DNA of 64,000 nt, from contig NC_054748.1 in assembly GCF_018143015.1 (NCBI RefSeq), positions 18,511,225-18,575,224 on the forward strand. Direction: 5' to 3'. The position numbers and the translations under genes are program-made. This document shows, piece by piece, positions 16,325 to 62,890 of the stretch. The notes under the pieces were generated by a model. It had not been told where the DNA came from. It saw only the letters and a list, made by a program, of their open reading frames with translations, and made no database searches. Position 1 is the stretch's first letter. Each line of letters starts with the position of its first letter. The DNA is from Lytechinus variegatus (taxonomy: Eukaryota > Echinodermata > Echinoidea > Temnopleuroida > Toxopneustidae).

Positions 16325-19300
16325 TTAGTCGGAGTTAGGGACTAAGGAGATCAACTTGTGGACAGGTCTTTCAAGCACAGTTCTCTTTTGGAGAGGTTTT
16401 CCATTCTTGTCTAAGTCCGGAGTTGCCTTGAGAAGTTTAACTCGACGAACGAAGCCATCATCGCTTACGAAAGTCTGAACAACCTTGGCTATACTCCAGT
16501 GTGTTCTACAAAGACCATCGTCTCGTAGCATGACTATGTCATTTACTTCGAAGTTTCGCTGTTGTTTTGGCCAGGTCTTCCTGGTTTGGAGGGTGTGAAG
16601 ATACTCTTTCTTCCAACGAATCCAAAAGAGATCTGTTAAGTATTGCACACGTCTCCATCTTTTTGAGAGATAGAGGTCTTCTCTCTCAAATTTTCCTGGT
16701 GGGGGCATCACAATACCTGACTTCATGGTCAAGACATGATTCGGAGTCAAGGGGAGTGGACCATCCGCGCATTCCAGATCTTCAACTGTCAATGGCCTGC
16801 TATTGATGATAGCCATAGCTTCGTACAGGAACGTTCGAAGAGAGGATGTATTTAGTTGAGTTCCTGACTGTTCTAGTATTCCATCGAGAACATTTCTGAC
16901 ATTCCTGATTTGTCGTTCCCAGATTCCTCCCATGTGACTTGAAGAAGGAGGGTTCATCTTGAATTCGCAGTCAAGTTTCAGTAATTGAGTGGCAACGCAA
17001 TCTCCATCTAATTCACGGAGGCCTTTTTTCAATTCATGCTTGGCTCCAATGAAGTTAGATCCTTGATCACAACGAATGAGGCGAACATTTCCCCGGATAG
17101 CAATGAAGCATCTTAGTCCATTGAGAAATGCATCGGTGGACAGATCGTCTAGCATTTCGATATGTACGGCCCTCATAGCCATACAGGTAAGAATGAGCCC
17201 ATATCGCTTTATCTCCTTTCTTCCTTCCTTGATAGTAAAGGGACCAAAACAGTCAAGTCCACAGTAGGTGAAAGGAGGAGAAGGGTCTACTCTATCCTGA
17301 GGTAGATCGGCCATCTTTTGTCCTCTTGGCTTGCCTCGGGATTTGATACAGATTACACACTTGCTGATTAGAGATGAGACAATACTCCTGCAACCAATGA
17401 TCCAATATCCACTGGAACGAATGGCATTGATGGTCAGATTTCTTCCTTGATGTGCAGTTCTTTGATGATAGTGCAAGGCAACGAGGTTGGATAGATGGCT
17501 TCGCTTTGGTAGGATGATAGGATGTTTTGCACCATACATCATCTCGGCCTTTTTCAACGGACCTCCCACCCGTAGAAGATTGTCATTATCAAGGAAAGGG
17601 TCAAGCTGCTTCAATGAGTTGGACTTTGAACCGACTGAGGGATCTGACTTGATTTGCTTCCTTTCTTCACGAAATGCTTCTTTCTGAATTGCACGGATAA
17701 TATTCCTTTCCGCTATTCGTCTTGCTTCTACTTCATCAATGCTCAGGTCCTTCTTTCTGTAGCAGCACTTTACTATCACTGCAACTGCTGACACTGCATT
17801 ATGAAGACTGGAGAACCGAGTCAATCTATCTTCGAAAGATGTGAAGTTCTCTACCTGTGTAACATGAACAGTAGCTGCTGATTTCACTTCAACATCGTCA
17901 GGAGAAACCTCAACATCGACATCTTGTGTAGGAATCTCACTCTTCCAAAGAAAGGTAGGTCCTGTAAGCCAGTTGGATGATAGCATTTCTTCTGTCGTCA
18001 ATCCTCGAGAAGCATGATCAGCAGGATTCTCAGCACTGGATACATAATTCCATTGTTCTGGGCATGAAGTCTGAAGTATGCGTTCAACACGATTGGCAAC
18101 ATACATATGGAAGCGCCTAGTCTCGTTGTATATGTAGCCAAGAACAACTTTTGAGTCTGTCCAGAAGTAGTGCGTGAGAGAATCGTAGTCAAGTTCATCA
18201 TTTAGGATACTAGCAATTCTTACGGAGCAGGTAGCTGCCTGTAGTTCTAACCTTGGGATTGTTGTTGGCTTTAGAGGAGTCACTCTTGCCTTTGCCATGG
18301 CTAAGGAGCAGTGGACCTTGCCATTTTCATCCTTTAGACGCACGTAGGAGCACTGACCATATCCTGATAAGGAGGCGTCTGAAAAGTGGTGGAGCTGCAC
18401 TTCCTGAGGTGTCCCAAAGTCTTGTGGTTCGAAGCAACGAGGGATGGTAACTTTGGGAAGTTTCAGAATCTCAAGTCTCCACTTTTCCCATTGTGGACGG
18501 AGATCTTCAGGAACAGGATGGTCCCAGTCCATCTTTTGTCTACACATTTCCTGGACAATCTGTCTTCCAACAAGAACCACAGGTGCAATCAAACCGAGTG
18601 GGTCGTAAATGGAAGCAACGGTGGCAAGAATCCCGCGTCTTGTCAGGGGATGATCTTTGAGGGTTAGTCTGAAACAGAATTCATCTGAGTTGATGCACCA
18701 TTGTATCCCAAGTGCTCTTTCAATTGATGTGGAGCCTTGTTGACCGAGTTCCAGACTAGTCTTTGCAACAACAGTTCGTTCCGATTCAGGGATACTGCTT
18801 GTCACTCGTTGATTGTTGCAGACAAACTTATGAAGACGCAGGTTACCTTTGGCACACATAGACACTGCCTTCTTGATAAGGTCAATGGCATCTTCTTCAG
18901 AGGATACACATTTTAGGCCATCATCGACGTAGAAATTCCTCTTCAAGAATTCTGCAGCTTCTACACCAAGGACTTTGTGGTCTTCTGCTATTTGCTTCAG
19001 CCCGAAGTTTGCACATCCCGGAGAAGAAGTGGCTCCAAAGAGATGGACCTTCATTCGATAATCCACTGGGGGCTTAGAGAGATCCCCATCCTCCCACCAC
19101 AGGAAACGGAGATAGTCTTGATGTTCCTTCGTCACACGGAACTGGTGATACATCTTTTCTACGTCGCAAGTGAAGGCTATAGGTGCTTGGCGAAATCTAC
19201 ACAGAACTCCGATAAGGGGATTGATCAGGTCGGGCCCTTGTAGAAGATGATCATTCAGACAGGTTCCTTGGTATCGAGCACTACAGTCGAATACGACCCT

Positions 19301-22276
19301 GACTTTGTTCGGCTTTTTAGGGTGATATACACCATGATGTGGTATATACCAACTGCTTGAAGTAGACACTTCATCTGTGGGAATCTTCTCAGCATCACCT
19401 CGCTTAAGAATCTCATTCATGAAAGTCATGTAGTGTTCATGGTACTTTGGTCTCTTCAGGAACTGATTTTTCAATCCGTGAAGTCGGCTCATAGCAGCTT
19501 TCCGATTGTCAGGCAGATCAGGTTCACCCTTCTTGAAAGGTAAGGGCATTTCATAATATCCATCATCCCTTTGGTGGATTCCATCTTTGATGATCTTTAG
19601 AAATTTCTTGTCTTCCTGGGACATCGTTTCCTTTCTGTCTAATTCATGAAAGTCTCTTTCCATCATCTGAAGGAAGTCTCCAGCAGTAACTTCCTTTAAC
19701 TGTGTCTTGTAAATGTACTTCACATTAGACTGACTGTCTGTCAGACTAGGATCTGCTACCTTCACATTGACAGTACGATATGTCTGCCCAATCGTGTCAA
19801 AGCTCTCTGTGGAGTCGTTCTGAGAACCACCGACGATGCTCCATCCCAACTCCGTCTCTACTGCAAATGGCTCATCATTCTTTCCAAGAATGCAATTCTT
19901 TGGTGCAAGAGCCCGGGCACAATTGTATCCAATGAGCAGACCTATGGGGCAATCTTGCTTTGGTGCGAGCTGGTTCGAGATATTGTTTAAGTGAGTCCAC
20001 TTGTTGGCTGTCTCTTCTGTGGGGATATGAGCTTCATCAAGAGGGATGGAGTCCCTGGAGTATGCAGCAGGAAGAGGTATCTTTACTGCTGACTTAAAAC
20101 CTCGAACGACAAGATTCTTGAATTTCCTACATGGAATTGTCTTGGAATCTGTCATTGTAGTCAAACTTAACATCGCAGTTTCAGAGGACACCTGTAGGTC
20201 ATTTCCAATACTATCTGTGATAAATGTTGTATCCGACATCGTATCTAGTAAGGCATATACTAGTATCTCCTTCTGAGGGTCATCCAAACTAGATAGGTAA
20301 ACAGGCAGCACCATCGATGTGAGAGAAACATCTACATCTGACCTGACTCTGTTGCAAGAAGCTTCTTTCTCCTTGGTAACTTCTTTGGTCTGAGTAGACT
20401 GTGCCTCACTTTGATCATGTTTTCTTTCCGTAGACAGCTGATTTAGTGTCTCATTGTGTAGACTTGTTGGGTGGCGCTTGTTGCACTTCTTGCACTCAGC
20501 CCTTTTTTGACACTGCTTTGACATATGACCTTTGGAGAGACATCCGAAGCAAAGACCTTCTTTCTTCACTAAATCTCTCCTTTGCTCCAAAGTTTTCTGA
20601 TTGAAGTCCCAGCACTCATTCAACCCATGATTCTGCCGTTTGCAGAGGACACATGTCTTCTGGGTAGTGCTTGTCTTGCTGGCTACAGAGAAGGTTGTCC
20701 TTTGTTGACGAGATGTAGGATTCTTGCTTTCTTCCTGTATCTGGAAAGCATCGTTATGATTCTTGTCTTTTCCTGCCTTTACTGTGTCATATGTAACATA
20801 CGGATCATTGGCAATATCAGTTTCTTCTGATAGAAATGAGACAAATTCTCTGAATGATGGATACCTGCCATTGTCTTTCTTGACTTTCGCTACCGTGCGA
20901 TTCCATCTGTGTACAATCCAATCCGGAAGTTTCATGCAAATTTTGCTCATCTCCCGAATGTCATTCAAGATTTCCAAGTCTTTGATTTCTGATGATGCTT
21001 GAAGACATTGTTGCAAGAAATCTGAAAGTTTCTGAAGGCCTTTGGAATCCCTATTGCCGATCCTTGGCCACGAGTCAAGTTTGGATCGAAAGGCTTCTGA
21101 AATGGTGAAGGGGTTGCCGAAACGCTTCTCAAGTATTTCTCTGGCTTGTTCATATGCTTTCTCAGACCTCAGCAAAAAGAAGCCGCTGACAGCCTCTCTT
21201 GCTGATCCTCCAATGTACTTTCTTAGGTAGTGTATCCTTTCACCAGAGGGAATTCCACGACATTCAATTAAAGTTGTGAAAGCTGATAGCCAGTTAGGAT
21301 ATTGGAGAGGATCACCCATAAATACTGGAGGCTCAGGAATTGGTAACCGACTAAGTGTCATCGTTCGAGTGAGAACTTCTGCTAGACTTTCATTCTGTTG
21401 GGCCTCGCTTGAAGAATGAGATGGCTGGAAGACAGGTGAATCAGGATTTAAGGCCTTGCTCTTTGTGAGAGGAGGATCAATGGAGGCGTCATGTTTTTGC
21501 GACTTAACCCTTTTGTCATCTTGATTAGGGGATTTAATCAATTGTTTTGTCGATCTCATCGTATCTGTTGACGCACCATCATCTTCTACTTCGTCATACA
21601 CTCTTATCATTGCCTCCTGTGCCTTTAGTTCACCTTCTAGGCGTTCCTCTTCTAGTTTTCTTCGTAGCTGTTCTATCTTGAGTGATGCTTCTTTCCTTCG
21701 AGCATCTTCTTCCATCTCGAGGCGTTCTAACACCATCTGGCATTCATTCTGGCGCTTGTGAGCAGCAAGTTTCTCTTGCAATGCTGCCGCTTCAGCTACT
21801 ACAACTGCCCTTTTTGAAGAAATTGTAGACATTTTCGACATCTTAGACGCAGCAGACTTCTTTGAAACAGAGGGTGCTTCAATGAATGTTTCCCGTCGTG
21901 ATTCAGAAACGGCAACCACAATTTTTGAAATTGTGTCTACAATAATTGGGGAAAGCTCATCTAAATGCTTGGCTATGTCCTCATTCACACCGCCTTGAAT
22001 TTCTTCAAGTTCACTTGCAACTTTTCGCAGAGAATCGAATCTTGCAGAAATATCAGATTTCCGCAGAGAAAGTTCATTTTCGTTAATGGGGACTGAAGAG
22101 AGCAATCTATCAGTGTCCTTTAGGGTTGTTAGCAGGTCAAGGTGTTCTGAATAAAATTTGCCCTGCAACTCATCATCTTTCTTTTGCATGATTGCTTTTT
22201 CTGTTAGTTTCTTTATGCGAGCAGAACGGCGCATATTCTCTACAGACATGCTATCTATGTCTACATGAATATCCAT
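16325..22276 (-). CDS. BEL/Pao gag-pol polyprotein
   Basis: A single 1983-codon frame. From the N-terminus: a charged coiled-coil region rich in K, E and R (about 150-240); a BEL-type gag region (about 310-450) with MGDPLQYPNWLSAF; zinc knuckles at about 542-600 (CVLCKRQNHGLNEC, CFGCLSKGHMSKQC, CKKCNKRH); an aspartic protease region (about 660-760); reverse transcriptase (about 980-1200) with NFYVDDGLKC at about 1114; an RNase H and Pao-type region around 1290-1420 with HHFSDASLSGYGQC; an integrase zinc-binding domain (about 1600-1645) and catalytic core (about 1665-1790) with GLDCFGP, RCDQGSNFIGA and HMGGIWERQIRN; and a C-terminal BEL-specific domain (about 1850-1960). It should supply the proteins for the element's own reverse transcription and integration. 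It looks whole. Confidence 0.95.
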   Translation of the reverse strand: MDIHVDIDSMSVENMRRSARIKKLTEKAIMQKKDDELQGKFYSEHLDLLTTLKDTDRLLSSVPINENELSLRKSDISARFDSLRKVASELEEIQGGVNEDIAKHLDELSPIIVDTISKIVVAVSESRRETFIEAPSVSKKSAASKMSKMSTISSKRAVVVAEAAALQEKLAAHKRQNECQMVLERLEMEEDARRKEASLKIEQLRRKLEEERLEGELKAQEAMIRVYDEVEDDGASTDTMRSTKQLIKSPNQDDKRVKSQKHDASIDPPLTKSKALNPDSPVFQPSHSSSEAQQNESLAEVLTRTMTLSRLPIPEPPVFMGDPLQYPNWLSAFTTLIECRGIPSGERIHYLRKYIGGSAREAVSGFFLLRSEKAYEQAREILEKRFGNPFTISEAFRSKLDSWPRIGNRDSKGLQKLSDFLQQCLQASSEIKDLEILNDIREMSKICMKLPDWIVHRWNRTVAKVKKDNGRYPSFREFVSFLSEETDIANDPYVTYDTVKAGKDKNHNDAFQIQEESKNPTSRQQRTTFSVASKTSTTQKTCVLCKRQNHGLNECWDFNQKTLEQRRDLVKKEGLCFGCLSKGHMSKQCQKRAECKKCNKRHPTSLHNETLNQLSTERKHDQSEAQSTQTKEVTKEKEASCNRVRSDVDVSLTSMVLPVYLSSLDDPQKEILVYALLDTMSDTTFITDSIGNDLQVSSETAMLSLTTMTDSKTIPCRKFKNLVVRGFKSAVKIPLPAAYSRDSIPLDEAHIPTEETANKWTHLNNISNQLAPKQDCPIGLLIGYNCARALAPKNCILGKNDEPFAVETELGWSIVGGSQNDSTESFDTIGQTYRTVNVKVADPSLTDSQSNVKYIYKTQLKEVTAGDFLQMMERDFHELDRKETMSQEDKKFLKIIKDGIHQRDDGYYEMPLPFKKGEPDLPDNRKAAMSRLHGLKNQFLKRPKYHEHYMTFMNEILKRGDAEKIPTDEVSTSSSWYIPHHGVYHPKKPNKVRVVFDCSARYQGTCLNDHLLQGPDLINPLIGVLCRFRQAPIAFTCDVEKMYHQFRVTKEHQDYLRFLWWEDGDLSKPPVDYRMKVHLFGATSSPGCANFGLKQIAEDHKVLGVEAAEFLKRNFYVDDGLKCVSSEEDAIDLIKKAVSMCAKGNLRLHKFVCNNQRVTSSIPESERTVVAKTSLELGQQGSTSIERALGIQWCINSDEFCFRLTLKDHPLTRRGILATVASIYDPLGLIAPVVLVGRQIVQEMCRQKMDWDHPVPEDLRPQWEKWRLEILKLPKVTIPRCFEPQDFGTPQEVQLHHFSDASLSGYGQCSYVRLKDENGKVHCSLAMAKARVTPLKPTTIPRLELQAATCSVRIASILNDELDYDSLTHYFWTDSKVVLGYIYNETRRFHMYVANRVERILQTSCPEQWNYVSSAENPADHASRGLTTEEMLSSNWLTGPTFLWKSEIPTQDVDVEVSPDDVEVKSAATVHVTQVENFTSFEDRLTRFSSLHNAVSAVAVIVKCCYRKKDLSIDEVEARRIAERNIIRAIQKEAFREERKQIKSDPSVGSKSNSLKQLDPFLDNDNLLRVGGPLKKAEMMYGAKHPIILPKRSHLSNLVALHYHQRTAHQGRNLTINAIRSSGYWIIGCRSIVSSLISKCVICIKSRGKPRGQKMADLPQDRVDPSPPFTYCGLDCFGPFTIKEGRKEIKRYGLILTCMAMRAVHIEMLDDLSTDAFLNGLRCFIAIRGNVRLIRCDQGSNFIGAKHELKKGLRELDGDCVATQLLKLDCEFKMNPPSSSHMGGIWERQIRNVRNVLDGILEQSGTQLNTSSLRTFLYEAMAIINSRPLTVEDLECADGPLPLTPNHVLTMKSGIVMPPPGKFEREDLYLSKRWRRVQYLTDLFWIRWKKEYLHTLQTRKTWPKQQRNFEVNDIVMLRDDGLCRTHWSIAKVVQTFVSDDGFVRRVKLLKATPDLDKNGKPLQKRTVLERPVHKLISLVPNSD

Positions 22277-23028
22277 GCTACCGATGAGGGCATTAATTCA
22301 ATAATCAACTTGCTGAATCACAACAGGGAACCTATTGTATATATTCTTCATAAAAAAAGCATAGAAATTCCAAATGGACAATATATAGTTACATCTGACT
22401 TCTCAACATAGAAATGGAAATTGTTGAATCATATAGCAAAGATTGAAATTTAGCTTCCGCAAAATAATCTGGAGTTAAATTGCAAGTAACAGATACTCCA
22501 TCAAACTTCAAAATTGAGAAGAATGCATTCAAATAATTTCTCGGCAAAATATCTCAAAGACCGAAATATGAATTTAGAAAATATAATGAGATATATGAAT
22601 TATATCAATCATTTGCAAACTGATGAAAAGAAATAAATAGAATGGTATGACTTACTGAAGACGAATCATGATACGATCGACTTACATGTAGATGCAATAA
22701 AATAAAATTAGTCCGGTTGTAACTCTTGCTTCAGTTCGTTGTTTGTCTACTTCAATTAATTGTTATAATTCTAAGCCTATAGTTCTAGTTCTCGTTCATT
22801 GGTTCTTTGACATCTTTAAAGTTCTGGGATGCGTTGTAGATCTAGATGTGTTTCCAAGGTTTTGAAGCCGTCACTCAGTTGCCGAATATCCCGCGATGCG
22901 CCTTAACCGATGGCTTGAAGGGACCGAATGCACTGGTTGACATCGAATGGCTCAGCTTGATACATCTACACGATCATCTAAGCATACCGGTACTTGTTGG
23001 ACAGGATTCAATGTCCATCGAGTTTCAC
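22277..23028 (-). other. BEL 5' leader
   Basis: About 750 bp between the 5' LTR and the first Met of the gag-pol frame, AT-rich, with no coding frame on the element strand. The short plus-strand frame at 22846-23115 runs into the LTR and is not a gene. Confidence 0.6.
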
Positions 23029-28100: not shown

Positions 28101-31100
28101 AGCATGATCATTCATATGCTTATTCTTTGCATGCTGAATTAATCTCGGGGGTATAACAATGATTATTGTTTTCACATCTATTTCTTTAATTCAATATTTT
28201 CATATTGTGTCATTGATAATATTATTATTATGTAGATGTTATCCAAGAACTATTACCTTTTATTAACTTATCTAATTTGAAGGTACGGGAGAAAGCTAAT
28301 TATTACAATTGTTTAATTTAATTGTACGAATGTGCAAAATTGCAACATCAGCCTGCAAAGATGCTTATTAGCCCACAAAAATAACAACAAAGTGTTTCAG
28401 CAATGTGTGCTATTTGGCAACAAGCCAAATAATAGTCAATTAATAAGTAGTTCAAAGTGGACAATGTAACAGAAGCTTTCCAAATTGTTAATTAACATAA
28501 CCTCTATGTTATGTCACCTGGTCTATGCAGTAAATCCTTTTATAGAGTTTAATATTACTGATTGGCATTCCAGACAAATTTGTAACATCCTCTTTCAAAA
28601 AAAAATTAGTAGAGTATATATGAAGCTAAAGAAAACAGAGAGGCCATTGCAAAATCTTGCTAAAATGCTAATTACCAAATAGCTTAATTTTATATCATAC
28701 CTTTCTTCTGTTGGAGTACCCTGGATTGCGAGGATCCCATTCTTTGCTTGAATCTTGGTGACCTTTGCCATGACCTTTGACCCTTTAGGTAACCTCTCCT
28801 CAGCGTCTGAACCCCGGAGAGGGAGTGAAAGATTGAACCAGTTATGAACCAGGCAGCTGACGTGATCCTTTGCAAGCTCGTTAACCACACACTGTGAAGG
28901 AATAAATAGAAAATGATATAAAATAATAACTATAATGATGATGAGGATGAAATTAATAATGATGATATTAATGATAATTATAAACGTGGTGATAATTACG
29001 ATAACAGTGATTATAATGATGATGATTGTGATGATTATGATGAAAATGATGGTGGTGGTGGTGATGACGATGATTTTTAAGGAGCTTAACTACTGGTGTT
29101 TCTAAGCACACTGTGTTCAGTTTATTGTTTGTACTTGGGATTTAAAACAAAATATGACACAGCTAATGAAACTATACTAATAATAAAAAAATAGAAACTG
29201 GTGTGCACCTCCAATTGACCGACCAACAACTGTGAATCATCTATTAAACAGGTAGGTTTTGAGTAGGGTTTTGAACTGATTCACAGACTTGGCATTATGA
29301 ATGTAAGTGTGTGTGTATTTGAGTTTTGTCAGACGTGTATCAATCAGATATGATTATTTATGCCTGGGACCACCTTTAACGTCACCATCCGAAAGACGTG
29401 ACCAGGGCTCGAACCTCGAACCTCTGCATCAATTTGTAACTTCCCCAAAGCTTGGATTACAGGCGCACGCCACAACGCCCAGTTTTGAATTCTGTGAAAC
29501 CCTACCAATTTTAATACTCTCAAGACACATTGTAAGATGGTAGCTTGATAGTGATATTGATGATGATGAGGACGAGGATGATAATGAGGATGATGATGAT
29601 CAGGATGATAATGACTATGATGATGATGATGATGATGATGAGGATGTCAGGATGATGATGATAATATTAAACAAGTGGAATGCCTCTGGCCGTCTCACCT
29701 GCATCACGCGGTTCAATATACATGTAGCAGCAGTGCTCACTTTGAATACTACTCTAACTCGCACAAGATGTTCAGTGATACATGGTTACTCTTATGTCCA
29801 CTTTTTATGAACTAGACCAATAAACTTACAGAGATATGATGGTTATTCAACAAAAAACCCCAACATGGCCAAAGTTCATTGACCTTACATGACCTTTGAC
29901 CTTGATCATGTGACCTGAAACTCGAACAGGATGTTCAGTGATACTTGATTACTCTTTATGTACAAGTTTCATGAATCAGATCCATAAACTTTCAAAGTTA
30001 TGATGGAAATTCAACAGATACACCCAATTCGGCCAAAGTTCATTGACCTTGGTCATGTGACCTGAAACGCACACAGGATGTTCAGTGATACTTGATTACT
30101 ATAATGTCCAAGTTTAATGAACTAGACCAATAAACTTTCAAAGTTATGATGGTAATTCAACAGATACCCCCGATTCGGCCAAAGTTCATTGACCCTAAAT
30201 GACCTTTGACCTTAATCATGAGACCTGAAACTTGCACAAAATTTTCAGTGATGCTTGATTACTATTATGTCCAAGTTTCATGAATCAGATCCATAAACTT
30301 TCAAAGTTATGATGGGAATTCAACAGATATCCCCAATTCGGCCAAAGTTCATTGACCCTAAATGACCTTTGACCTTGGTCATGTGACGTGAAACTCATGC
30401 AGGATGTTCAGTGATACTTGATTAACCTTATGTCCAAGTTTCATGAACTAGGTCCATATATTTTCTAAGTTATGATGACATTTCAAAAACTTAACCTCGG
30501 GTTAAGATTTCGATGTTGATTCCTCCAACATGGTCAAAGTTCATTGACCCTAAATGACCTTTGACCTTGGTCATGTGACATGAAACTCTAATAGGATGTT
30601 CGGTAATACTTGATTAACCTTATGGCCAAGTTTTATTAACTAGGTCCATATACTTTCTAAGTTATGACGTCATTTCAAAAACTTAACCTCAGGTTAAGAT
30701 TTGATGTTGACGCTGCCGCCGCCGGAAAAGCGGCGCCTATAGTCTCACTTTGCTTCGCAGGTGAGACAAAAATTATTTTGTTAAAATTCTAATCATCATG
30801 AGGAATGAGGATTACACTGCAGGTATATTGCACACACATCTACACTGCATTTACTATATACAGGTCTCTTGGAGTAAAAATAAAATCATTTTAACTTGTT
30901 TTGAATTCTGTGAAACCCTACCAATTTTAATACTCTCAAGACACATAGTAGACCCAATAGAAAAATGCACTAATAACATAGGTTTTCTGAAGCTGTGGGT
31001 CCCATTTCATACAGACTTTATATAATAACAAATGCACAATTTCTATACGAAATTCACTATCAGCCAATCAGATTGAAGGATTTGTTATTGTAACAAGTTT

Positions 31101-49601: not shown

Positions 49602-52600
49602 ATGACACGACATCAGAGAAATTGCACAGCAGGAACTGTTTATACATATCATGAAAGACAAAAGGACGCTGGTGAGCATATAAATCAAATCATTTTGATA
49701 TGTAAAATCTGTGTTTGATTGATTGTCTTGACTCTGTGTTTTTGCATGAGAAATGGTGTTGTCCCACTCGTTCATTTCTGTGTACCGGGCGGTATTTGTC
49801 CTCGCATCATTCTGAACTAACGTTTTATCGTTAAGACTAGGCCTATTAGATCTAATTCTAATTGACAATTTTCATAATGGTCAGTGACAGATGAGACGAA
49901 GAAGAAGATTATCTATTGAATGTCACACTGAAATAGATAAAACTTGAACTGAAGTGGAGTCAGCTGTGTGTGGAGAGCATTTTCATGATTTTCATGAATA
50001 AAATATGCAGCAAATTGCACTCGGATATTGCAGTGATTTCCTCTGACATTTTGAGTTTTGTTAGAAGCTGCTAACGCTAGAATCTAGGAACCTTTAATGA
50101 TTGGCATTTATATAGCGCTTTATCAATCTACGACTGTTCAAAGCGCTTCACAATTATTATTACCCGGTCACTGGATTCATAGCATTCCAAGCAGCCCGCG
50201 CCTGTTAGGCGCAAACTTTTAAACCAACCACAATGATGGTTGTTTCCTACCGCCGGTACCCAATTAGCACCTGGGTGGGAGTGGCAAAGTGTGGATTGGC
50301 GCCTTGCCAAAGGGCGCTAGGCCATGGTGGGATTCGAACACACGACCCTCTGATTACAAGGCGAGAGTCAGAACCGCTACACCACGGCGCTTTAACTAAG
50401 TTTGGCTTTGCAGTTTGCATCTGACTCGACTCTGCTTCTGATACATTTGCTGAGTCGAGTGGGAGAATGAATGAGGGAATGACAAAATTCTTTGTGAAAT
50501 TCATCCCTTAACTAAAATCCAAACAGAACTGTTCATTTTTTTCTGTTTGTTCTTGTTTGAATTTTGTTATTATTATTAATATTAATTACGGGAGCTGATG
50601 ATGTCATATCCCCACTTAATCTTTTGTATTTCATTATGAAATTAGGTTTACTAAAAAAATTTCTACCTAAAACTATAATAATTGGATGAACAACTGATTA
50701 AGTGCATTAGTTATTTATTGCCTCAACTTATTTCACCCACATGCCACAATTTTTTTTGGCTCGCTTCATCAAAAGCACCAATGTCAACTTCTAGCACTAG
50801 TATACCCAGTTGTTGTGTGTCCGGACGATCAATTTTAGAAAGTCATTTGGAAAAATTTACAAGGGAAGTTTTATCAATTTTTAGTACAAAATGTCAGGAA
50901 ATATTATAGAGAGCAAAATAGAAGATGATTACAACTATTAAATTCGTATTTTTAGTGTAATCCAAAGACAAAAAAAATAAGGATTCAAAAATATAAAGTG
51001 TGCGGACACCCGACCCCCATCCTAATATCTAAACAAATAGTACCTACATTGTATCAGCTCATCAACCTTGTCGCAGACACACTGAGAGTATACCAAGGAG
51101 ATCATTTGGGTGTGGAAACAACCCACTACGAACAACAACACCATAATGGAGACACATCATTTAAACATGTATGAAAAAATGAAACAATTCTGATTTCATA
51201 TAATAACAGAAGAAAAAGGAAAGTGGTGATATGACATCATCGCCCCCTAATGAATATTCATGATGATGTGCATATATCCATTTAAAAAAAATATGGATAA
51301 ACTTTTGAATTCAATAGCTTTGCTAATTATTATCTGATTTTGATGAAATTTTCAGCATTTTGCTTTGTGAATTTTACTCTATTTATTCAGATATAAATAT
51401 TTTCAGTCAGTACCTTCCCTTTAAATTGATGTGAGTTAACTTGTCTGTCATAGCAAATTACAAAGATACATGTATTGCAAACTTCCCAAATGCTGGCATC
51501 TTGTGCCTGGTATTAAAAACCTATGAGAAATGTTTTGTCCCGTTGCACTGCTTCTGTTTCTCTTCATATTTGTTTGCCTTTTAAGGCTTTATGTTAAGCT
51601 AAAGAGTATTTGCTTAACTCTTCAAGTTAAGCATACTTGCTCTTTAACTCTTAATTATGAATAATTGCCTTTTAAGTGTTAAGAGGATGTGTTTTTAAAT
51701 CTTTTAAGTAATGAGTACATTTGCTTTTTAAAGGAAATCAAAACCCAAGATGAGAAGCAATCTTATTGGAAAGAGTAAAATAAGAGGAACAATTTAAAAC
51801 AAGTTTCATCAAAATCGGTTGTGAAATAAGCGATGTTATGGACGCTTAAAAAGTCTTGTACTTTCTATGGGATCCTCAAATTGGCAAACATGCTTTAAAA
51901 TGGCTGATTTTGTGGACAACTCTCCAATTGTTTTGTACACATATTTTCAGATTTTCCCCATTATTTGAGATATTTCACATTATCTCCTGACCTTGACATA
52001 TGTGGTGTGAATTATATTTTCCCATGACATATGTTGTGCTCAGAAGGAGGCAAGATGCAATTTGAAAGATAACAAAGAAAATCTGAATATTTGTGTACAA
52101 AACAAATGGAGAGTTGTCCACAAAATTAGCCATTTTGAAGCATGATTGCCAATTCAAGATCCCTAAAGAAAGTACAACAAGACTTTTCAAACTTATAACT
52201 TGCTTATTCTATGTCCGATTTTCATGAAACTTGTTTTAAATTGTTCCTCTCATTTTACTCTTTCCAATAAGTTTGCTTCTCTTCTTAGGTTTTGGTTTTC
52301 TTTAACTATTATGATAAGAGTACTTGCTTTTTCAAGGGGAATCCAGCCTTGGCCACAAAATGTTGTGTTGGGAAGGAGAATAAACAGAATAGTGAAAGTT
52401 TGAAAGAAATCGGACAAGCAATAAGAAAGTTATAGCTGCTTTAAAATTGAGATCACTAATAGTATGTAGATTTCAAATTGGCAACAGGGTAAGTAAATTA
52501 TGACAAGGGGCAAGGACAACTTTCCCATAGGCCATGTACTTTATTATCAGAGATTTGTTGTTTTCTCCTAAGTACCAATTTCCCTGGGGCAGTAATCTAA

Positions 52601-55600
52601 ATATAATCCAGGTAGTATATTGTTTTATGTCCTCATGAACGAAAAATATAATTTGAAATAAAACTTTTGGGAAAAATGACATTTTAGCCATAATATGTAT
52701 TGGAGTACATGGAAGAGTAGTCCTTGCCTTAAGTCACTATGCCATCCCATATGCGGCCAATTTGAAGTCTCCATGAATATACTTTTATATAGTGATTACC
52801 AATATTTACAACTTTTAAAAATTCATAACTTTCTTGTTGTTTGTCCAATATTTTTCAAACTTTCACCTATCAACCTGTCTGATTTTTCTTTTTCTTATGA
52901 AAACAAGTTTTTATTTGGGTTGGATTCCCCTTTAATTCGCTTGCATTTTTTCTTTTTAAGAAAGGAATACTTGGTTTTAACTTATTTTTAAACTCAACTT
53001 ATAGAGCACTTTATTTCCTTCTTCCAAATATAGCTGCATCGGGTTATGGCACCAATAAAGCTCGTCTTGGGAAAGACTCCGAGAAAGATTTTGATTGCTG
53101 TTGTCTTACCTTACAACCGTGCAAGAACCCTGTCATTACGTAAGGAAAAAAAATGTACTTTATTAATGCTTGCACTTTATTTCATTGTACTTCCCTTTGT
53201 TTTTTATTCAAATAAAGGTTAAAAAGTCAATTCTCTCTCTAAAACAATGTCACTTTACCCAATTTCATCTCGCATTTGATATCTGTGATGAATTGGATTC
53301 TTTTTGCTGTATTTTAGTTACATTTTTTCTTAAACAACCAGGGACTTTTTTTCACTCTCTTACTTACACTTTGTTGAGGAAAATTGCATCAGTTTGATAA
53401 GAGTCCATTCTCATTAGAAAAAAATTAGTGCATATTGTTAAAAGTCGGTTAGAGCTTTGCTTTGTTAGTGTAGTCTTCAGAGTTAGTTTCATACAAGACT
53501 AAGAACATTTGCAACTTTGCCTTGATGGTAAATACCACATGTGGTAACATGGCTCAACATTCAATGAAAATCAAGGTTTCCATGGTAGTTACATTGTTAC
53601 AATGATGGAAAAGTTACGATGATTAAAAGTCCTTTATGAAACAAGCTCATATTTTCATATTTTCAATTTCCAGGAAAGATGGCTACTTGTATGACAAGGA
53701 AGCCATCTTGGAGTATATTCTCTTGAAGAAAAAAGAAATCAAACTTCAGATGAGTGAATATGAGAAACAAATCAAGAAACAAGAGGTGAGCAATTCTGCA
53801 GAGTTTGATCGATAATTTGGAAAAAATAATTATTTAATAGAAGTATAAAAACATAATCAGTGAAAGTAATTGAATATATATCAAGAGAATTACAACCATT
53901 CATGATAACAAAAATGTAAATTTTATAAATTATTATTCTTGAAATATGACATTATCAGTGCATATAATAACAAATATATCAAGAAAATCATGAGCATACA
54001 TACTAATGAATATATTTACAGTACATGAAGAGTATCGACGGAAAATACTAAAAAAGTCTTAAGTCCATTTACAAAAATGTGCAGAAAGCAAACCTTTCTT
54101 TTTAGTGATTCCGTATTCCATATTATTGAAACTCATTAAAGTGAGGTTTAAAGCTAGCAAAATCAGGGATCTAATTTTGAAATTTGCAGAGAAAAATTAA
54201 AGTATTTCAACGATAGAAAATTAATGAAATATAAGGACTGTGTTATTTTCATGTGATTACAACAGAAACACTCAATATTAATAGCTTTATCTAATCCAAT
54301 TTCATTTTATTTTTTTCTCGAGTATTGATCTATATTTTGTTAACCTTCATTTGATCACCTCAATACAAATTTAATTGTGTTGATATCTTCTCAACTGTAT
54401 GTATAATTTATCCTCTTATTCCAACACCTTTCACTTAGAAACTGGATGAAGATGGAAAGAAATCACAACAATTGAAGAGAGTCCAAGACTTTGTTGAATC
54501 AGGTAAGTTAACATATAAAGGACTAACATCAAGAAGATTTACAGTTCACCATGTGTAATATGAAGAAGGGAAAGGGCAGAAAAATTGAAATGGAAAGATG
54601 AGAAAGGATGTAAAGAGGAAATTAGAGGTATTCTTTTCTCGAAAGTGAGTGAAGTCCTGAAAAGGACTGTAAACCAGGTGAGATTAGCTGAATATGTCTT
54701 GAGAATGGTTGGATCAATTAAAACTCATTGTAAGACATGGCCTGGATTCGTCTTTTATAACAATAAAAAAAAATTACAAAGATTTCTTCTTTATTACACA
54801 GAGAGCAGTATCATTGGTGGAGCCTCTTCTGCGAAGCGAGCAAGGATGGGCGAGGCTTCGACATCGAACGGTACCAAGTCGGTTTCTAACATGATCGATG
54901 GCAGAAATAAAGAATTGCCGAGCTTCTGGATCCCTGAACACACTCCGGATGCAAAACCAACCCTCGTCAAAAAACCTGTGAGTAAAAAAATCACGAAGAC
55001 CCTGTTCCATTAAACTTTGTGATTGATTGTCGGGCAGATTTTTACCATTGATTGCATTGTAGAAATCAACCCCACAATCAATTGCTAAGCTTTATGTAAC
55101 GTGGCTCAGTTTCATGTTTTTCTATAATGCAAATTCTGTGTTCTTTTGGTGCTCTAACATCAAAGTATATATTACATGAGACCCAGGAAGGATTTAATGA
55201 AACAGGGCCCTGTCTTACAAGAGTTGCAATTGATCCGATCAATCACAACTATGGAAAGCCAGCAACGTCAACATCTATTATTCATGTTCAAAATATTTTC
55301 TAACTGTGATGCATATTCATGCATTTACTGTTTTTTTTCTTGCAAATTCACTGTGCTTCTCTTTGTTTACAAAGGACATTGTGCAACTATCCTGTAGAAA
55401 AAATTATACCATTGATGGATTTCCATAGAGTTACGTTTGATTGGATCAATCGTAACTCTTTGTAAGACAGGTGTGTGTGTATTTGAGTTTTGTCAGACGT
55501 GTATCAATCAGATATGATTATTTACGACTGGGACCGACCTTCAACGTCACCATCCGAAAGACGTGACCAGGGGTCGAACCTCGAACCTCTGCATCAATTT

Positions 55601-58600
55601 GTAACTTCCCCACGTAGCTTGGATTACAGGCACATGTGCCGTAACGCCCAGTTGTGACATGATCAATGTAAGACAGGACCCAGATATTCATTTATTTATA
55701 AGGACTATTGTTATAAGCTATTGTAAATCCTTGCATCTGATTGGCTGAAAGCAAGTAATTGAGTGAAAATCACTGACAAAAATTTTTCATGTAATGCTTC
55801 CCAGTATTTGTTTTGATGTTAGATTTAGTATTTAGATATGATCATGTCTTGGATTGATGGATCAAAACTTAAAATAGCACTTAATCCTTGTATGGTTTTT
55901 GCTGTAGTTATATTATTCATTATTGTGCTTTATTTTTTATAATGCTTTATAATGCCAAGCACGTGAAAGCTGCTTGAGCTACAGCCAGGGTAATAATATC
56001 CAAGTCCTTTGGAAGCCCATAGAGACGTTATTCATAATGTGTTATGCACTATACAAGAACTGACTATTATTATTATATTTATACTTCCTTTTTTTCTTTC
56101 TTCCTTCTCTCATTCATCTTAGACACAAAATTAAGTTATGATGTATATTACTTTACCTTTGCCCGAGATTCTGGAAGAATGCTGATGATCCCAGCAATCG
56201 TGCCTCCAGTTTAAGTCCTTCATCCTTCTCGTTAGTTAGGTATCTTCATAGCAGTCCAGCTCGGAAATCTACACCGTCCTCAACAAATTGTTTGTAAATT
56301 GTTTACAGATTGTTTGTAAATTTACCCCTTCAGCTTGTTCTGTTGATCAATCTTAAATAATGAAATAGATATATATTTCTGTAACATTCTTTTTGCAGGA
56401 CAAGACAATCTACTGTCCGATGAGCAAGAATCCTCTTTCTCTGAAATCACTCATTCCTGTCAACTTCACACTAGTAGACGAGAAGGACAAGACACCACTC
56501 GTTGCTAAGAGAGAGAGATTTAAGTGTGCAGTCACCCATGATGTTCTCTCAAACTCAACGCCGTGTGCTGTTCTTAAACCAAGGTACATCTTTCATCCCC
56601 TCCTCTTTCATTTTCTCATATGTTTACTGATTTTTCTTTTTTATCTTGTTCTGATCTTCTCCTTATACTTCTTTCCTCTCTTATCTCCTTTTCCAATTTT
56701 TTTTATTCATCTTCTTTCCCCACTCCCCTAATTATTTATTTCTGAATTTGTTGCATCTTCACATCTGTCTGATGAATAATTGCTATAATTAGAACATAAT
56801 TTCTTGTATATTTGCAAAAGTAGAATTTTTCTCCTCCCTTTGTTTTTATTATCTCAGTGGTAAGGTAGTCACAATGGAATGTATCAAGAAATTTGTTCTT
56901 TTTCTTCTTCTTCCTCTTTTGCTTCATCAATCTCCTTTTGTTATTGTTCTTTTCCCTCCTCTTGCCATTTCTTTTCTTCTTTGTCTTTCTCTCTTCCTTA
57001 TTCTTCTTTTTGATTAATTTTCATTTCTTCTTTTATATCAATTGCTGTTTTCAGTACATCTCTTGTTTATTTACAAAAGTGAATTATCTTATTTCTCCTC
57101 TCTTTGTTTTATTATCTCAGTGGTAAGGTAGTCACAATGGAATGTATCAAGAAACTTGTTCTTCTCCTTCCTCTTTCTCTTCCTCAATCTTCTACTATTC
57201 TTCCTCCTTTTTTATTGTTCTTTTTCCTCCTCTTGCCATTTCTCTTCTTCTTTGTCTTCCTCTCTTCCTTATTCTTCTTTTTGATCATTTTTTTTCTTCT
57301 TTTAAATCAACTTGCTGTATGATTGCTGTTTTCAGTACATCTCTCGTTAACAATAGTGTATGATCTTTTTCTCCTCTCTTTTTGTTTTTTCATTCCAGTG
57401 TTAAGGTAATCACAATGTAATGTATCAAGAAATTTGTTTTTGTTCTTTTATTTTCTTCTCTTCTTCGATATTCTCCTCTTCTTCTTCCTCTTGCGATTTC
57501 TCATCTTTTTCCTCTCTTTTTAGCTCATCCGGCCCGAAGGGCAAGATGAGCTTATGCCGTGACGTGGCGTCCGTCGTCTGTCGTCCGTCCACAATTTCAA
57601 AATGCTACTACTTCACCATTTCAAGTCCGATTTCAATTCTGTTTGCTTTATATGATAGCACTAGGTGGGGCATTCAAAACTTCTACACAGAATTTTGAAA
57701 TGCATTAAATATGCTAATTTATGCGCATTTTTCAAAATTTACAAAAAATGCTATTCTTTATTTGTTGACCGATTTTGATTTTTTTGCTTCCATCTGGTAG
57801 AGCTTCATAAGGTTCACCAATCTTCTACACAGAATTTTGAAATTTTGACCAGAACAATTTTTATGCTAATTTATGCGAAATTTATGCATTTTTTAAAAAT
57901 TCACATAAAAGGCTTCTTCTTTATTTGTTGACCGATTTTGAATTTTTTGCTTCCATCTGGTAGAGCTTCATGAGGTTCACCAATCTTCTACACAGAATTT
58001 TGAAATTTTGACCAGAACAATTTTTGTCTCACCTGCGAAGCAAAGTGAGACTATAGGCGCCGCTTTTCCGACGGCGGCGGCGGCGGCATCAACATCAAAT
58101 CTTAACCTGAGGTTAAGTTTTTGAAATGACATCATAACTTAGAAAGTATATGGACCTAGTTCATGAAACTTGGCCATAAAGTTAATCAAGTATTACTGAA
58201 CATCCTATTAGAGTTTCATGTCACATGACCAAGGTCAAAGGTCATTTAGGGTCAATGAACTTAGACCATGTTGGAGGAATCAACATCGAAATCTTAACCT
58301 GAGGTTAAGTTTTTGAAATGTCATCATAACTTAGAAAATATATGGACCTAGTTCATGAAACTTGGACATAAGGTTAATCAAGTATCACTGAACATCCTGC
58401 ATGAGTTTCACGTCACATGACCAAGGTCAAAGGTCATTTAGGGTCAATGAACTTTGGCCGAATTGGGGATATCTGTTGAATTCCCATCATAACTTTGAAA
58501 GTTTATGGATCTGATTCATGAAACTTGGACATAATAGTAATCAAGCATCACTGAACATCCTGTTCGAGTTTCAGGTCACATGATCAAGGTCAAAGGTCAT

Positions 58601-61600
58601 GTAAGGTCAATGAACTTTGGCCATGTTGGGTTTTTTTTTGAATAACCATCATATCTCTGTAAGTTTATTGGTCTAGTTCATAAAAAGTGGACATCAGAGT
58701 AACCATGTATCACTGAACATCTTGTGCGAGTTAGAGTAGTATTCAAAGTCAGCACTGCTGCTACATTTAACCGCGTGATGCAGGTGAGTTGTGCAAGTTT
58801 CAGGTCTCTTGATTAAGGTCAAAGGTCATTTAGGGTCAATGAACTTTGGCCGAATCGGGGGTATCTGTTGAATTACCATCATAACTTTGAAAGTTTATTG
58901 GTCTAGTTCATTACACTTGGACATTAGAGTAATCAAGTATCACTGAACATCCTGTGCACGTTTCAGGTCACATGACCAAGGTCAAAGGTCAATGAACTTT
59001 GGCCGAATTGGGTGTATCTGTTGAATTACCATCATAACTTTGAAAGTTTATGGATCTGATTCATGAAACTTGTACATAAGAGTAATCAAGTATCACTGAA
59101 CATCCTGTTTGAGTTTCAGGTCACATGATCAAGGTCAAAGGTCATGTAAGGTCAATGAACTTTGGCCATGTTGGGGTTTTTTGTTGAATAACCATCATAT
59201 CTCTGTAAGTTTATTGGTCTAGTTCATAAAAAGTGGACATAAGAGTAACCATGTATCACTGAACATCTTGTGCGAGTTAGAGTAGTATTCAAAGTCAGCG
59301 CTGCTGCTACATAAACCGCGTGATGCAGGTGAGACGGCCAGAGGCATTCCACTTGTTATGCTAATTTATGCATATTTTTTAAATTCACATAAAATGCTTC
59401 TTCTTTATTTGTTGACCGATTTTGAATTTTTTGTTTCCATCTGGTAGAGCTTCATGAGGTTCACCAATCTTCTACACATAATTTTTATGCGAAATTAATT
59501 TATGCATATTTTTTAAAATTCACATAAAATGCTTCTTCTTTTTTATTTGTTGACCGATTTTGATTTTTTTTCTTCTATCCGGTAGAACTTCATGAGGCCC
59601 AACAAACTTCTACACAGAATTTTGAAAATTTTCAGTAGAAAATTATTAATGCTCATTTATGCGAAATGTATTCATGAATCACAGAAAATTCATCTTTTTT
59701 TTTATTTGTTGACAGATTTTGATTTTTTTTCTTCCATCTGGTAGAGCTGCATGAGGTTCTCCAAACTTGTACACAAAATTGTGAAATTTTGTCTGGAAAA
59801 TTGTTTATTCTAATTCATGCAAAATTTATTCATAATCACAAAAAATGTTTTTTCTTCTTCATTTGTTGATCAATTTCAGTTTTGTTTGCTTTATATGATA
59901 GCTCGAGGTGGAGATACAAAATTTAAACATAGAATTTTGAAACTCATTGAATCTGCTATTCATATATTTTCAAAACTCACAAAAATTGCTTACTTATTTG
60001 TTGATTGATTTTGGTTATTTTGTTCCATCTGAGAGCTACATTAGGTTCACCAAGGTTCTACACAGAGTTAAGAAACTTTGACTAGATAATAATTAATACT
60101 CAATTCATATGAAATTTATTCATAGATCACAAAAAATGCTTCTATGTCATGTCTTCATCAATTTCAATTCTATATCCTTAATTTATGTCACCAATATAAT
60201 TCACTACAGTGTCAACTGGGCTGAAATTAAAATTGTGTTGCGAGATACCGGATGAGCTCCACATCATTGATGTGCTAGTTCTTCCTTATTCTGCTTTTTG
60301 GGTATATTTTCTCATTGTTTTGATCTGGTTGTTGTATGATTGCCATAATGATCATCACATCATCTCTTGTTTACAAATTACAAAAGTATGTCATTCTCCT
60401 CTCTTTGTTTTTCATTTTCTTGGTGGTAATGAGGAAATCTCTTGATTATTTACAAAAGTGATCTTGTTTCTCCTCACTATGTTTTAATTTACAGTGGTAA
60501 GGTAGTCACAATGGAATGCATCAAGAAGCTCATCAAGAAAGACATGATTGATCCTTTTACCGAAGACAAGCTTGAAGAAACAGACATCATTGAATTCAAA
60601 AGGGTAATTCTTATTGTAGCTCACTGATCTGGGCCCCGTCTTACATAGAGTTACAATTGATCCAATAAATCACAACTATGGAAAGCCAGCAACATATTTT
60701 CTAGATATAATGTAAACCCATACATTTATCGCTTTGTTTAAAATTCAGGATACTTTTCTTTCCTGACAAAGGACATTGTTAAAATTTCCTGGAGAAAAAA
60801 TTATGACATTGCTGGATTTCCATATAGTTTAGGTTGATCAGATCAATCATAACTCTGTATAAGACGGGATGATTCACAAAGCTGTTCATATAAGTTCCAA
60901 GCAATTTACAAACGACTGGTGATCCTTTCTTGTGGTAAATGATATACACAACATTTCCATTGATGTTGATTTATCGCCTAAGAAAGGATCACCAGTCATA
61001 AAGCCGCTCTCAACTTTTGAAACAGCTTTTTGAAACACCCTCCTGTAGAGTGACAATGCTAAAGCATCTTGTAATAAAGCAATCAAGTCATTTCTTTGTA
61101 GTTCCAAAAATCAAATCTTTAATGTGCTCATTAGGCCTTTTTAACAGTAGATTTTTATCAAATTGTACATGGATATCTCAAATTGACATGATATGATTCT
61201 TTTGAAATAAAAAAGGGTGCCATTTCCTCATAGAAAGATAGATAGCCTGAAGAATGTGCTCGAAACATACCGTAATCCTGAATCATCCAATGAAGTTAGA
61301 TCAATCACTGAAACTTTTGATATTACATGTACAGTCTTTTTTTATACCTGCCTATAATGGTTATGTATTCTTACTCTCTTGAGGGGGAAATTTGACTGAT
61401 GATCCTGTTCGAACATCCACCAGTTTATCGTGCCCATTTAGTTTCTGCCTCTCTATTTCTTTCTGCGTGTATGACTCGTATGTGTTTATGCCTATGCAAT
61501 CGCCTCATAATTGGGGGCAAAATTTTGCCACTCAAGTTTCACACCAGGGAAGATTCGAATGGCTGCTAGTCTTATGCAGATGGTGCTAAGAGACTTAAGA

Positions 61601-61787
61601 TATGGCAATGCCCTTTTACATGGAAGTATCTTTATAAGATGTGATATGAATGCCATATTTTGTGTGTAGTCCCATTTTAACCATATTTTTTTTTTTTTTT
61701 TCTTATTTTTACCAGGGAGGAACAGGTTATGCCAGCACTGGGGCCAAGGCAGCAGAGAAGGCTAGGCCTGTCATGATGGCCTCATAG
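49602..61787 (+). CDS. NOSIP: Nitric oxide synthase-interacting protein homologue (split U-box)
   Basis: NOSIP family proteins are U-box E3 ubiquitin ligases; the vertebrate protein binds eNOS and shuttles between nucleus and cytoplasm. Coding exons: 49602-49671, 53034-53139, 53674-53785, 54439-54502, 54802-54977, 56399-56583, 60495-60603 and 61716-61787. All junctions are GT-AG and phases agree, giving 297 residues against about 301 in human. In order: N-terminal MTRHQRNCTAGTVYTYHE; first U-box half DFDCCCLTLQPCKNPV with GYLYDKEAILEYIL (about 38-75); a coiled coil rich in K, E and Q; a basic SSAKRARMGE patch that could be a nuclear signal; LPSFWIPEHTPDAKP; second U-box half IYCPMSKNPL, CAVTHDVLSNSTPCAVLKPS, GKVVTMECIKKLIKKDMIDP; and the conserved tail RGGTGYAS with ARPVM. 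A T-rich tract and AG at 49540 suggest a further non-coding 5' exon upstream. Introns 1 and 6 are swollen by mobile elements. Confidence 0.97.
50099..50394 (-). repeat. tRNA-derived SINE, nearly full length
   Basis: On the minus strand: GTGGTGTAGCGGTTCTGACT (A box), GTGTTCGAATCCCACC (B box), a body with GGCGCCAATCC and GGTACCGGCGG, and the tail AAAGCGCTATATAAATGCCA. The head resembles a Leu- or Ser-type tRNA. Pol III SINE in NOSIP intron 1, antisense to the gene. Confidence 0.85.
50815..51014 (+). repeat. Family H MITE, right copy (uninterrupted)
   Basis: About 200 bp with ends GTGTGTCCGGACGATC and GTGCGGACACCC, approximately inverted. It is the reverse complement of the split copy at 47724-49500. 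Together the two copies bracket NOSIP coding exon 1. Confidence 0.8.
51730..52304. repeat. Long fold-back element
   Basis: Arms of about 230 bp. AAAGGAAATCAAAACCC pairs with GGTTTTGGTTTTCTTT, AGGAACAATTTAAAACAAG pairs with CTTGTTTTAAATTGTTCCT, and GTGGACAACTCTCC pairs with GGAGAGTTGTCCAC. The centre is near 52010. Non-coding, in NOSIP intron 1. Confidence 0.85.
52334..52932. repeat. Second fold-back element
   Basis: AAGGGGAATCCAGCC at the left pairs with GGTTGGATTCCCCTTT at the right. Inside, GAAAGTTTGAAAGAAATCGG is roughly paired with a CCAATATTTTTCAAACTTTC stretch. It starts 30 bp after the first fold-back element but is a different family. Confidence 0.75.
55205..55681. repeat. Family E MITE interrupted by a SINE
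   Basis: Left arm GGGCCCTGTCTTACAAGAG and right arm CTTTGTAAGACAG are inverted over about 60 bp including GATCCGATCAATC, with GGATTTCCATAGAG against CTATGGAAAGCC. The right end is broken by the SINE at 55471-55666. A sister copy is at 60629-60868. Confidence 0.75.
55471..55666 (-). repeat. SINE with 7SL-like head, copy 2, with 10-bp TSD
   Basis: Flanked by TGTAAGACAG on both sides (55461-55470 and 55667-55676), as expected of LINE-driven insertion. On the minus strand it shows GGGCGTTACGGCACATGTGCC, given here only in part as GGGCGTTACGGCAC, then TGTAATCCAAGCTACGTGGG, GAGGTTCGACCCCTGG and the same body as copy 1. It sits in NOSIP intron 5, antisense. Confidence 0.7.
56858..57440 (+). repeat. 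Three tandem partial copies of NOSIP exon 7
   Basis: Exon-like starts follow a TCAG or CCAG acceptor at 56858, 57121 and 57399. Copies 1 and 2 keep TGGTAAGGTAGTCACAATGG and ATGTATCAAGAAA, encoding SGKVVTMECIKK, then run into pyrimidine-rich sequence instead of the rest of the exon. Copy 3 is more worn. The period is 263 then 278 bp, and intron sequence on both sides is part of the unit. A fourth, very worn unit lies at about 60340-60430. The true exon 7 at 60495 is last in the series. Confidence 0.88.
57522..60258. mobile_element. Large internally repetitive TIR element in NOSIP intron 6
   Basis: Edges AGCTCATCCGG and CCGGATGAGCT are inverted. After the left edge comes a CGTGGCGTCCGTCGTCTGTC stretch, then about nine units of roughly 120-150 bp with TTGTTGACCGATTTTGAT, CATCTGGTAGAGCTTCATGA and TTCTACACAGAATTTTGAAA. 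The DR1-array element 58026-59357 is inserted inside. Intron array sequence resumes on the far side (CTTCCTTATTCTGCTTTTTG), so it landed in the third exon 7 unit. No protein frame is present. Confidence 0.7.
58026..59357 (+). repeat. DR1-array element, copy 3
   Basis: 1332 bp, starting GTCTCACCTGCGAAGC and ending GGCATTCCACTTGTT. It holds six perfect AGGTCAAAGGTCA motifs near 58222, 58425, 58589, 58818, 58980 and 59132. A GCAGGTGAG fragment at about 58780 looks like an internal end, so this copy may be a dimer. The host repeat supplies an empty site: GAACAATTTTTATGCTAATT at about 57863. Confidence 0.85.
60629..60868. repeat. Family E MITE, uninterrupted copy
   Basis: Begins GGGCCCCGTCTTACATAGAG and ends CTCTGTATAAGACGGG, with ATGGAAAGCCAGCAAC on the left and GCTGGATTTCCATAT on the right. 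It lies in NOSIP intron 7, 25 bp after exon 7, and is followed at once by a family A element. Confidence 0.75.
60869..61045. repeat. Family A palindromic MITE in NOSIP intron 7
   Basis: CACAAAGCTGTTCATATAAG and ACGACTGGTGATCCTTTCTT on the left pair with AAGAAAGGATCACCAGTC and GAAACAGCTTTTTGAAAC on the right. It abuts the family E element with no gap to speak of. Confidence 0.7.
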
Positions 61788-62890
61788 TCCAGACTCTATA
61801 CTCCAATTCCTAGTCCTACTTATCTCTCTGCGGTAGTCCTGTTCAGACCTTTATCTATCCAGATTTAAACTTGGATCCTTGTCCAGCTTGTCATCTAGAG
61901 GAAAATCCACTAATCGGATTCTAAGCAGGACCTTAATTTAAACCATGGACCTGTCATGATGGCCTCATAGTCCAGACTTTATACTTCAGTTCCTAGTCCT
62001 GCTCATCTCTCTGTGGTAGTCCTGTTCAGACCTTGATCTATCCAGAGCTAAAATTGGATCCTTGTCCAGGTTGTCATTTAGAGTCTATCCACTAATAGGA
62101 TTTTAAGCAGGACCTTAATTTAAACCATGGACCTGTCATGATGGCCTCATAGTCCAGACTTTATACTTCAGTTCCTAGTCCTGCTCATCTCTCTGTGGTA
62201 GTCCTGTTCAGACCTTGATCTATCCAGAGCTAAACTTGGATCCTTGTCCAGGTTGTCATTTAGAGTCTATCCACTAATAGGATTTTAAGCAAGACCTTAA
62301 TTCAAACCATGGACCTGTCATGATGGCATCATAGTCCAGCCTTTATACTCTGATTCCTAGTCCAGCTCATCTCTCTGCTGTATGCCTATTCAGACCTTGA
62401 TCTATCTAGATCTAAACTTGGATCCTTGTCCAGCTTGTCATCTAGAGTCTAATCCACTAATAGGATTCTAAAGAAGACCTTAATTTAAACCATGAACCTG
62501 TCATGTTGGCCTCATAGCCCAGACTTTATACTTCAGTTCCTAGTCCAGCTCATCACTCTGCAGTATGCTTTGAGTCCTTGTCAGACCATGATCTTACACC
62601 CAGGTCTGACCTTGGATCCAAGTCAAGATTTTCCTCCTGAATCTACGCCACTTGTCTGGATTCTAAACCAGATCTTGTTTTTAAACTGTAGACCTGTCAT
62701 GAATTGCATCAGAGCCCAGACTCTATACTCTGGTTCCTAGTCCTGCTTATCACTTAGGTGTATAGTAGTCATAGTCAGAGCATGGTCTAAAATCCACATC
62801 TACGCCTGGGCTCTTGTTTCATCACCGACCTCTCCCAGACTTGACTTGACATCCTTGTCTGGATTTTCAAGGCCACCACACACCTTACAA
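61767..62890 (+). repeat. About 182-bp tandem array seeded from the NOSIP last exon
   Basis: Six units start at 61767, 61950, 62132, 62314, 62497 and 62693 (periods 183, 182, 182, 183 and 196). The first lies inside the last coding exon: its opening CCTGTCATGATGGCCTCATA plus G encodes the final residues and stop of NOSIP. Later units repeat this with increasing change, followed each time by CAGTTCCTAGTCCTGCTCAT, GATCTATCCAGA and GGATCCTTGTCCAG. The last unit is the most diverged. The array forms most of the 3' UTR. Confidence 0.92.

Follow-up and report, generated by a model that had tools for sequence, protein, structure and literature searches.

The stretch analysed here (the window) comprises 64,000 nt of the sea urchin Lytechinus variegatus (positions 18,511,225 to 18,575,224 of NC_054748.1, assembly GCF_018143015.1) and contains the NOSIP gene, the sixth intron of which carries tandem copies of the 5' edge of the exon that follows it (Table 1). 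The predicted NOSIP protein matches the Pfam domains zf-NOSIP (E 8e-39) and U-box (E 4.1e-08). The NOSIP chain of PDB 8c6j/9fmd, which we take to be the human protein, matches residues 1-296 of the 297-aa product (E 6.3e-101), and the alignment extends across the 5' edge of exon 7 (PSGxVVTxEC), where the exon begins TGGTAAGGTAGTCACAATGGAATG. As this alignment spans the exon 7 start, exon 7 is ancestral and the related intronic pieces are its copies. A search of the 869.6-Mb assembly for NOSIP (a single assembly, in which only the best candidates were scored) listed 16 matches, which included exon 6 once and the full exon 7 once.

The recurrence of exon edges was examined by scanning ±4.5 kb with 34-nt queries from all 16 NOSIP exon edges, with five shuffles per edge. 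For 14 of these edges the best recurrence was 18-20/34, within the range obtained with shuffled queries (16-23); only the 5' edge of exon 7 and the 3' edge of exon 8 exceeded it. The first 34 nt of exon 7 recurred in intron 6 at 32/34 in both copy 1 and copy 2, and at 29/34 in copy 3. Upstream of each of these copies lie a pyrimidine tract and an AG; together the copies form head-to-tail units of 263-278 nt, in which the end of the intron and its AG are followed by ~36 of the 109 nt of exon 7, counted from the exon start. A 73-nt query from the array found four hits in the whole assembly, all of them in NOSIP intron 6 or at its end. The sequence TACATCT is common to the array unit and the exon 6 end and donor, a resemblance noted by eye only.

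An earlier, sequence-only reading of the window had proposed that exon 7 was duplicated in tandem together with its acceptor, in three recognisable copies and one very worn copy. The edge scan confirmed this arrangement, but it is the 5' edge that was copied, i.e., the first ~36 nt and not the whole exon. It was also correct that copies 1 and 2 remain in frame, reading SGKVVTMECIKK, and retain their AG acceptors. The copies had been placed before the true exon; all of them do lie in intron 6, but the worn copy, near 60422, sits beyond an insertion of ~2.7 kb and just before exon 7, from which ~60 nt separate its end.

Table 1. Features of the NOSIP locus, in window positions (a slash within a motif marks the splice junction)
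Feature	Position	Strand	Remarks
NOSIP gene	49602..61787	+	8 coding exons, intact; spliced open reading frame without stop, 297 aa
Coding exons 1-4	49602-49671, 53034-53139, 53674-53785, 54439-54502	+	
Coding exons 5-8	54802-54977, 56399-56583, 60495-60603, 61716-61787	+	
Intron 6	56584..60494	+	3911 nt; weak donor AAG/GTACAT
Tandem array	56826..57447	+	Tandem Repeats Finder (TRF): period 271, 2.3 copies
Copy 1	56858..56893	+	~36 nt of exon 7; CTCAG acceptor; cryptic donor GTG/GTAAGG at 56857-56865
Copy 2	57121..57156	+	like copy 1; donor identical
Copy 3	57399..57434	+	ATTCCAG acceptor retained; GGT to GTT removes GTG/GTAAGG donor; in-frame stop (ATG TAA)
Nested inverted-repeat elements (insertion)	57522..60258		~2.7 kb; splits unit 4 and the array
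Copy 4, worn	~60388-60431	+	pyrimidine tract retained; CTTGG/TGGTAATGAGG; AG to GG; exon part gone after GGTGGTAA
True exon 7	60495..60603	+	109 nt; source of the copies; GTG/GTAAGG motif at start

Because the insertion splits the array, the array is the older of the two. The outer inserted element has 11-bp inverted ends (AGCTCATCCGG/CCGGATGAGCT), and inspection by eye revealed no clear target-site duplication; the element nested within it, at 58026-59335, has 11-bp inverted ends of its own (GTCTCACCTGC/GCAGGTGAGAC). The latter pair of ends was also found at 29692-30767, and a lone GTCTCACCTGC at 4412, with adjoining repeats of 163/192 bp. Judged by these ends, GTCTCACCTGC/GCAGGTGAGAC is an inverted-repeat element that recurs within the window and, in intron 6, lies inside another element.

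The units differ in how far they have decayed. Counted rightward from ~56826, units 1 and 2 show 1, 0, 5, 6 and 4 mismatches over 31, 34, 52, 93 and 44 aligned sites, and to the left of that point they are more divergent (5/32 and 9/29 mismatches). The step in identity is located near 56826, 32 nt upstream of the exon edge, a position that fits the edge of a putative recent exchange better than it fits selection on the exon piece. Over 34 sites, copy 3 departs from copies 1 and 2 at three, and one of these changes makes the stop. At the two sites where copies 1 and 2 depart from the true exon, the change is synonymous (TGT/TGC and AAA/AAG), as would be expected if these changes fell in the true exon.

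Arrays with a similar anatomy have been described in lancelets as 'mirage' minisatellites, for which an unstable copy number is typical. The passages of PMC3087553 on BflGb6 describe units of 150-160 bp that join an intron's 3' end to the 5' part of exon 2; one haplotype has six copies and another three, with 81-100% identity. According to the same passages, many but not all copies have AG/GT signals, reverse-transcription PCR (RT-PCR) suggests that regular splicing is undisturbed, and a model for intron gain is offered. In the relevant part of PMC3902484, PGBD5 is added as a similar case, and Adh and TnC are cited. The NOSIP array resembles that of BflGb6 in having boundary-spanning, head-to-tail units of intron end, AG and exon 5' part, located in the intron upstream of the genuine exon, and in retaining the splice signal in many, not all, copies (an AG in three of the four). 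Its copies also adjoin the genuine boundary, with copy 4 near exon 7 and array hits only in intron 6. It departs from the lancelet cases in its echinoderm host, in the length of its units (10-160 nt in lancelet mirages) and in being split by nested elements. The likeness is anatomical. Searches of open-licence papers, judged by titles, term counts and the starts of abstracts, showed no report of an exon-edge array in an echinoderm among the hits listed, which in one case were 10 of 20.

Tandem exon duplication gives alternative exons, and the NOSIP array is similar in that exon sequence has been copied in tandem with its acceptor. However, the copies do not comprise a whole exon with both splice sites: they are restricted to ~36 of 109 nt and do not include the exon's own donor, and no replacement exon is possible.

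The intron 6 array is probably a decaying 'mirage'-type minisatellite born at an exon edge. This was one of two options offered by the sequence-only reading, and it is supported by the tandem anatomy, the graded decay and the published parallels. A segment with one limit in the pyrimidine-rich end of intron 6 and the other at about codon 12 of exon 7, with the AG between them, would have been duplicated in tandem, and the array would have re-expanded, presumably by slippage or unequal exchange. The most recent exchange, from near 56826, would keep copies 1 and 2 alike; subsequent decay would have given copy 3 its stop and cost copy 4 its AG, and the nested inverted-repeat elements would have been inserted later, splitting the array. 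By analogy with the lancelet mirages, the splicing machinery would most likely skip the copies in most transcripts. Intron 6 from its start to 57520 (937 nt) is 74.5% pyrimidine and contains TCTT at 61.9 per kb, compared with 6.2-16.7 per kb in the six other NOSIP introns; UCUU is the type of motif that is bound by pyrimidine-tract-binding repressors, and the action of such repressors on this UCUU-rich tract is plausible.

As a decaying minisatellite, the array would do nothing in particular. Copies 1 and 2 would nonetheless have the latent potential to give rise to a new intron or exon, since together they hold a strong donor and an acceptor ~261 nt apart. The array suggests that exon-edge minisatellites occur outside the lancelets in which they were described. 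It would represent a natural array, with graded decay, whose neighbouring copies supply the two ends of a latent intron or exon, and would offer a concrete test case both for the origin of introns by tandem duplication and for the neglect of good-looking decoy acceptors.

The second option was that the copies tune NOSIP splicing. They would then act either as decoy 3' splice sites or as poison exons: in a share of transcripts, exon 6 would be spliced to copy 1, 2 or 3, a stop would be met after 53, 67 or 7 codons, respectively, and the destruction of these transcripts would lower or tune NOSIP output. Splice sites were scored with matrices based on human frequencies. By this measure the acceptors of copies 1, 2 and 3 score 7.4, 7.4 and 10.4 and that of the true exon 7 scores 3.9, within a range of 3.9-12.0 for the seven real NOSIP acceptors. 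Donor-like sites lie behind copies 1, 2 and 3 at 57122 (9.4), 57405 (6.5) and 57664 (9.0, in the inserted element), and the objection that the copies cannot form exons for want of a donor downstream was rejected on this ground. With these donors, potential exons of 265, 285 and 266 nt would be closed, each with a stop inside; from their sequence, these would be poison exons. Copy 1 is also only 274 nt from the exon 6 donor, as against 3.9 kb for the true exon 7, and only 2 of 34 sites distinguish copies 1 and 2 from the true exon. When gaps are included, the comparison of exon part and flank between copies 1 and 2 gives p = 0.054, a non-significant hint of constraint. The acceptor scores, the donor-like sites with the exons that they would close, and this hint all weigh against an array that does nothing, and use of the copies at some level could occur.

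Regulation by decoys nevertheless appears unlikely. Eight AGs of intron 6, including that of copy 3, outscore copies 1 and 2, which tie at rank 9-10 of the 158 intron 6 AGs scored (the true one included), and high scores are therefore common in this intron. The potential exons of 265-285 nt exceed every internal NOSIP exon (64-185 nt), copy 3 carries a stop, and the passages of PMC3087553 and PMC3902484 on similar lancelet copies report them without a disturbance of splicing. The exon parts are also not significantly better conserved than their flanks (Fisher p 0.054-0.75 across all comparisons). Between copies 1 and 2, substitutions number 0/34 in the exon part and 16/220 in the flank (p = 0.14 when gaps are not counted); between copies 2 and 3 they number 3/34 and 21/129 (p = 0.41; with gaps, 0.21). 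When each copy was compared with the true exon, the values were p = 0.13, 0.71 and 0.75.

It had further been claimed that copies 1 and 2 run into an open, Leu/Phe-rich frame. Such frames are present, but their openness follows from pyrimidine richness, and copy 3 has a stop. The lengths given above, which include the exon-derived codons, were compared with 2000 first-order Markov simulations, of which 37% and 26% reached the observed length of the two long frames (p = 0.37 and 0.26); all three reading frames of this sequence stay open for at least 38 codons. A special open frame after the copies was rejected because its length is expected from base composition, and for the same reason the Leu/Phe-rich tail is no sign of coding. 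Coding constraint on the copies themselves is likewise unsupported, given the stop in copy 3 and the Fisher values.

It is highly improbable that the array already serves as a nascent-intron source, with units removed as nested introns of ~261 nt by joining GTG/GTAAGG to the next CTCAG. The cryptic donor, which was absent from the sequence-only reading, scores 9.4 in copies 1 and 2, above the exon 6 donor (4.7; real NOSIP donors 4.7-12.8), and the copy 1 donor and the copy 2 acceptor (7.4) in the adjacent unit bound a potential intron of 261 nt. There is a precedent in potato RdRp, where, in the section of PMC4974935 concerned, a tandem duplication of an intron end and exon start became a new intron with an exonic cryptic GTAAG as its donor, and was seen to be spliced in 106 RNA reads. 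The NOSIP piece likewise consists of a polypyrimidine tract, an AG and an exon start with a cryptic GTAAG, and donor and acceptor would come from neighbouring copies, with scores (9.4/7.4) that depend on the human-based matrices. In contrast to the potato gene, the NOSIP copies all lie inside an existing intron, and the potential intron is a prediction from the nucleotide sequence. More generally, part of PMC2891723 (Lehmann et al.) presents novel Drosophila introns as seemingly derived from tandem duplication, and part of PMC2809761 discusses how new introns could be sheltered by the decay of transcripts that are poorly spliced. However, each joining would leave a 2-nt 'TG', as read from the sequence, and the site would not be cleanly restored. 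Moreover, copy 1 has no match to the branch-point pattern yTnAy between -15 and -60, its only match being at -10. The pattern occurs at -19 of the true site, at -30 of copy 2, and at -49 and -7 of copy 3; two real NOSIP acceptors also have none between -15 and -40.

We give little credence to the idea that an array of 3' splice sites in NOSIP's own gene acts as a sensor that controls NOSIP dose. Scarcity or abundance of NOSIP could shift the choice between the decoys and the true exon 7, with the decoy products destroyed. In the relevant passages, NOSIP is among the proteins recruited to the C complex (PMC3079748) and is present in C*, the stage that uses the 3' splice site (PMC12071946). Self-sensing is conceivable because NOSIP is a C*-stage spliceosome protein, and mechanically possible because donor-like sites lie behind the copies. 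An assembly artefact, in which one exon edge was placed repeatedly, is extremely unlikely: substitutions and indels distinguish the copies both among themselves and from the true exon, and nested elements split one of them, although a single assembly was used and same-score match pairs elsewhere suggest possible uncollapsed duplicates.

The other exon edge to exceed the shuffled range, the 3' edge of exon 8, recurred at 25, 25, 24 and 23 of 34 sites. It belongs to a 182-bp array of 5.4 copies at 61763-62754, the unit of which starts in the last codons of exon 8 (PVMMAS and the stop) and extends through the 3' untranslated region; by its layout, this is a second exon-edge array in the NOSIP gene. 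A related array was found at G000:C9:18721532-18722313, beside a partial NOSIP paralogue (G000:C9:18684762-18721551) that lies ~112 kb downstream. The paralogue matches listed comprise exons 2-5, two further exon 4, one further exon 5, and exon 8; exons 1, 6 and 7 were not among the matches listed. As neither exon 6 nor exon 7 is among these matches, the paralogue cannot date the intron 6 array.

Among the 111 RRM-family matches in the assembly, many occur as equal-score pairs on one contig, on several contigs; these are perhaps uncollapsed haplotypes or recent duplications. Elsewhere in the window, a 1990-aa open frame on the minus strand (16325-22297) resembles a BEL/Pao-type retroelement. 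Tandem 20-bp repeats of one consensus occur at 15368 and 23296, and may lie in the long terminal repeats of that element.

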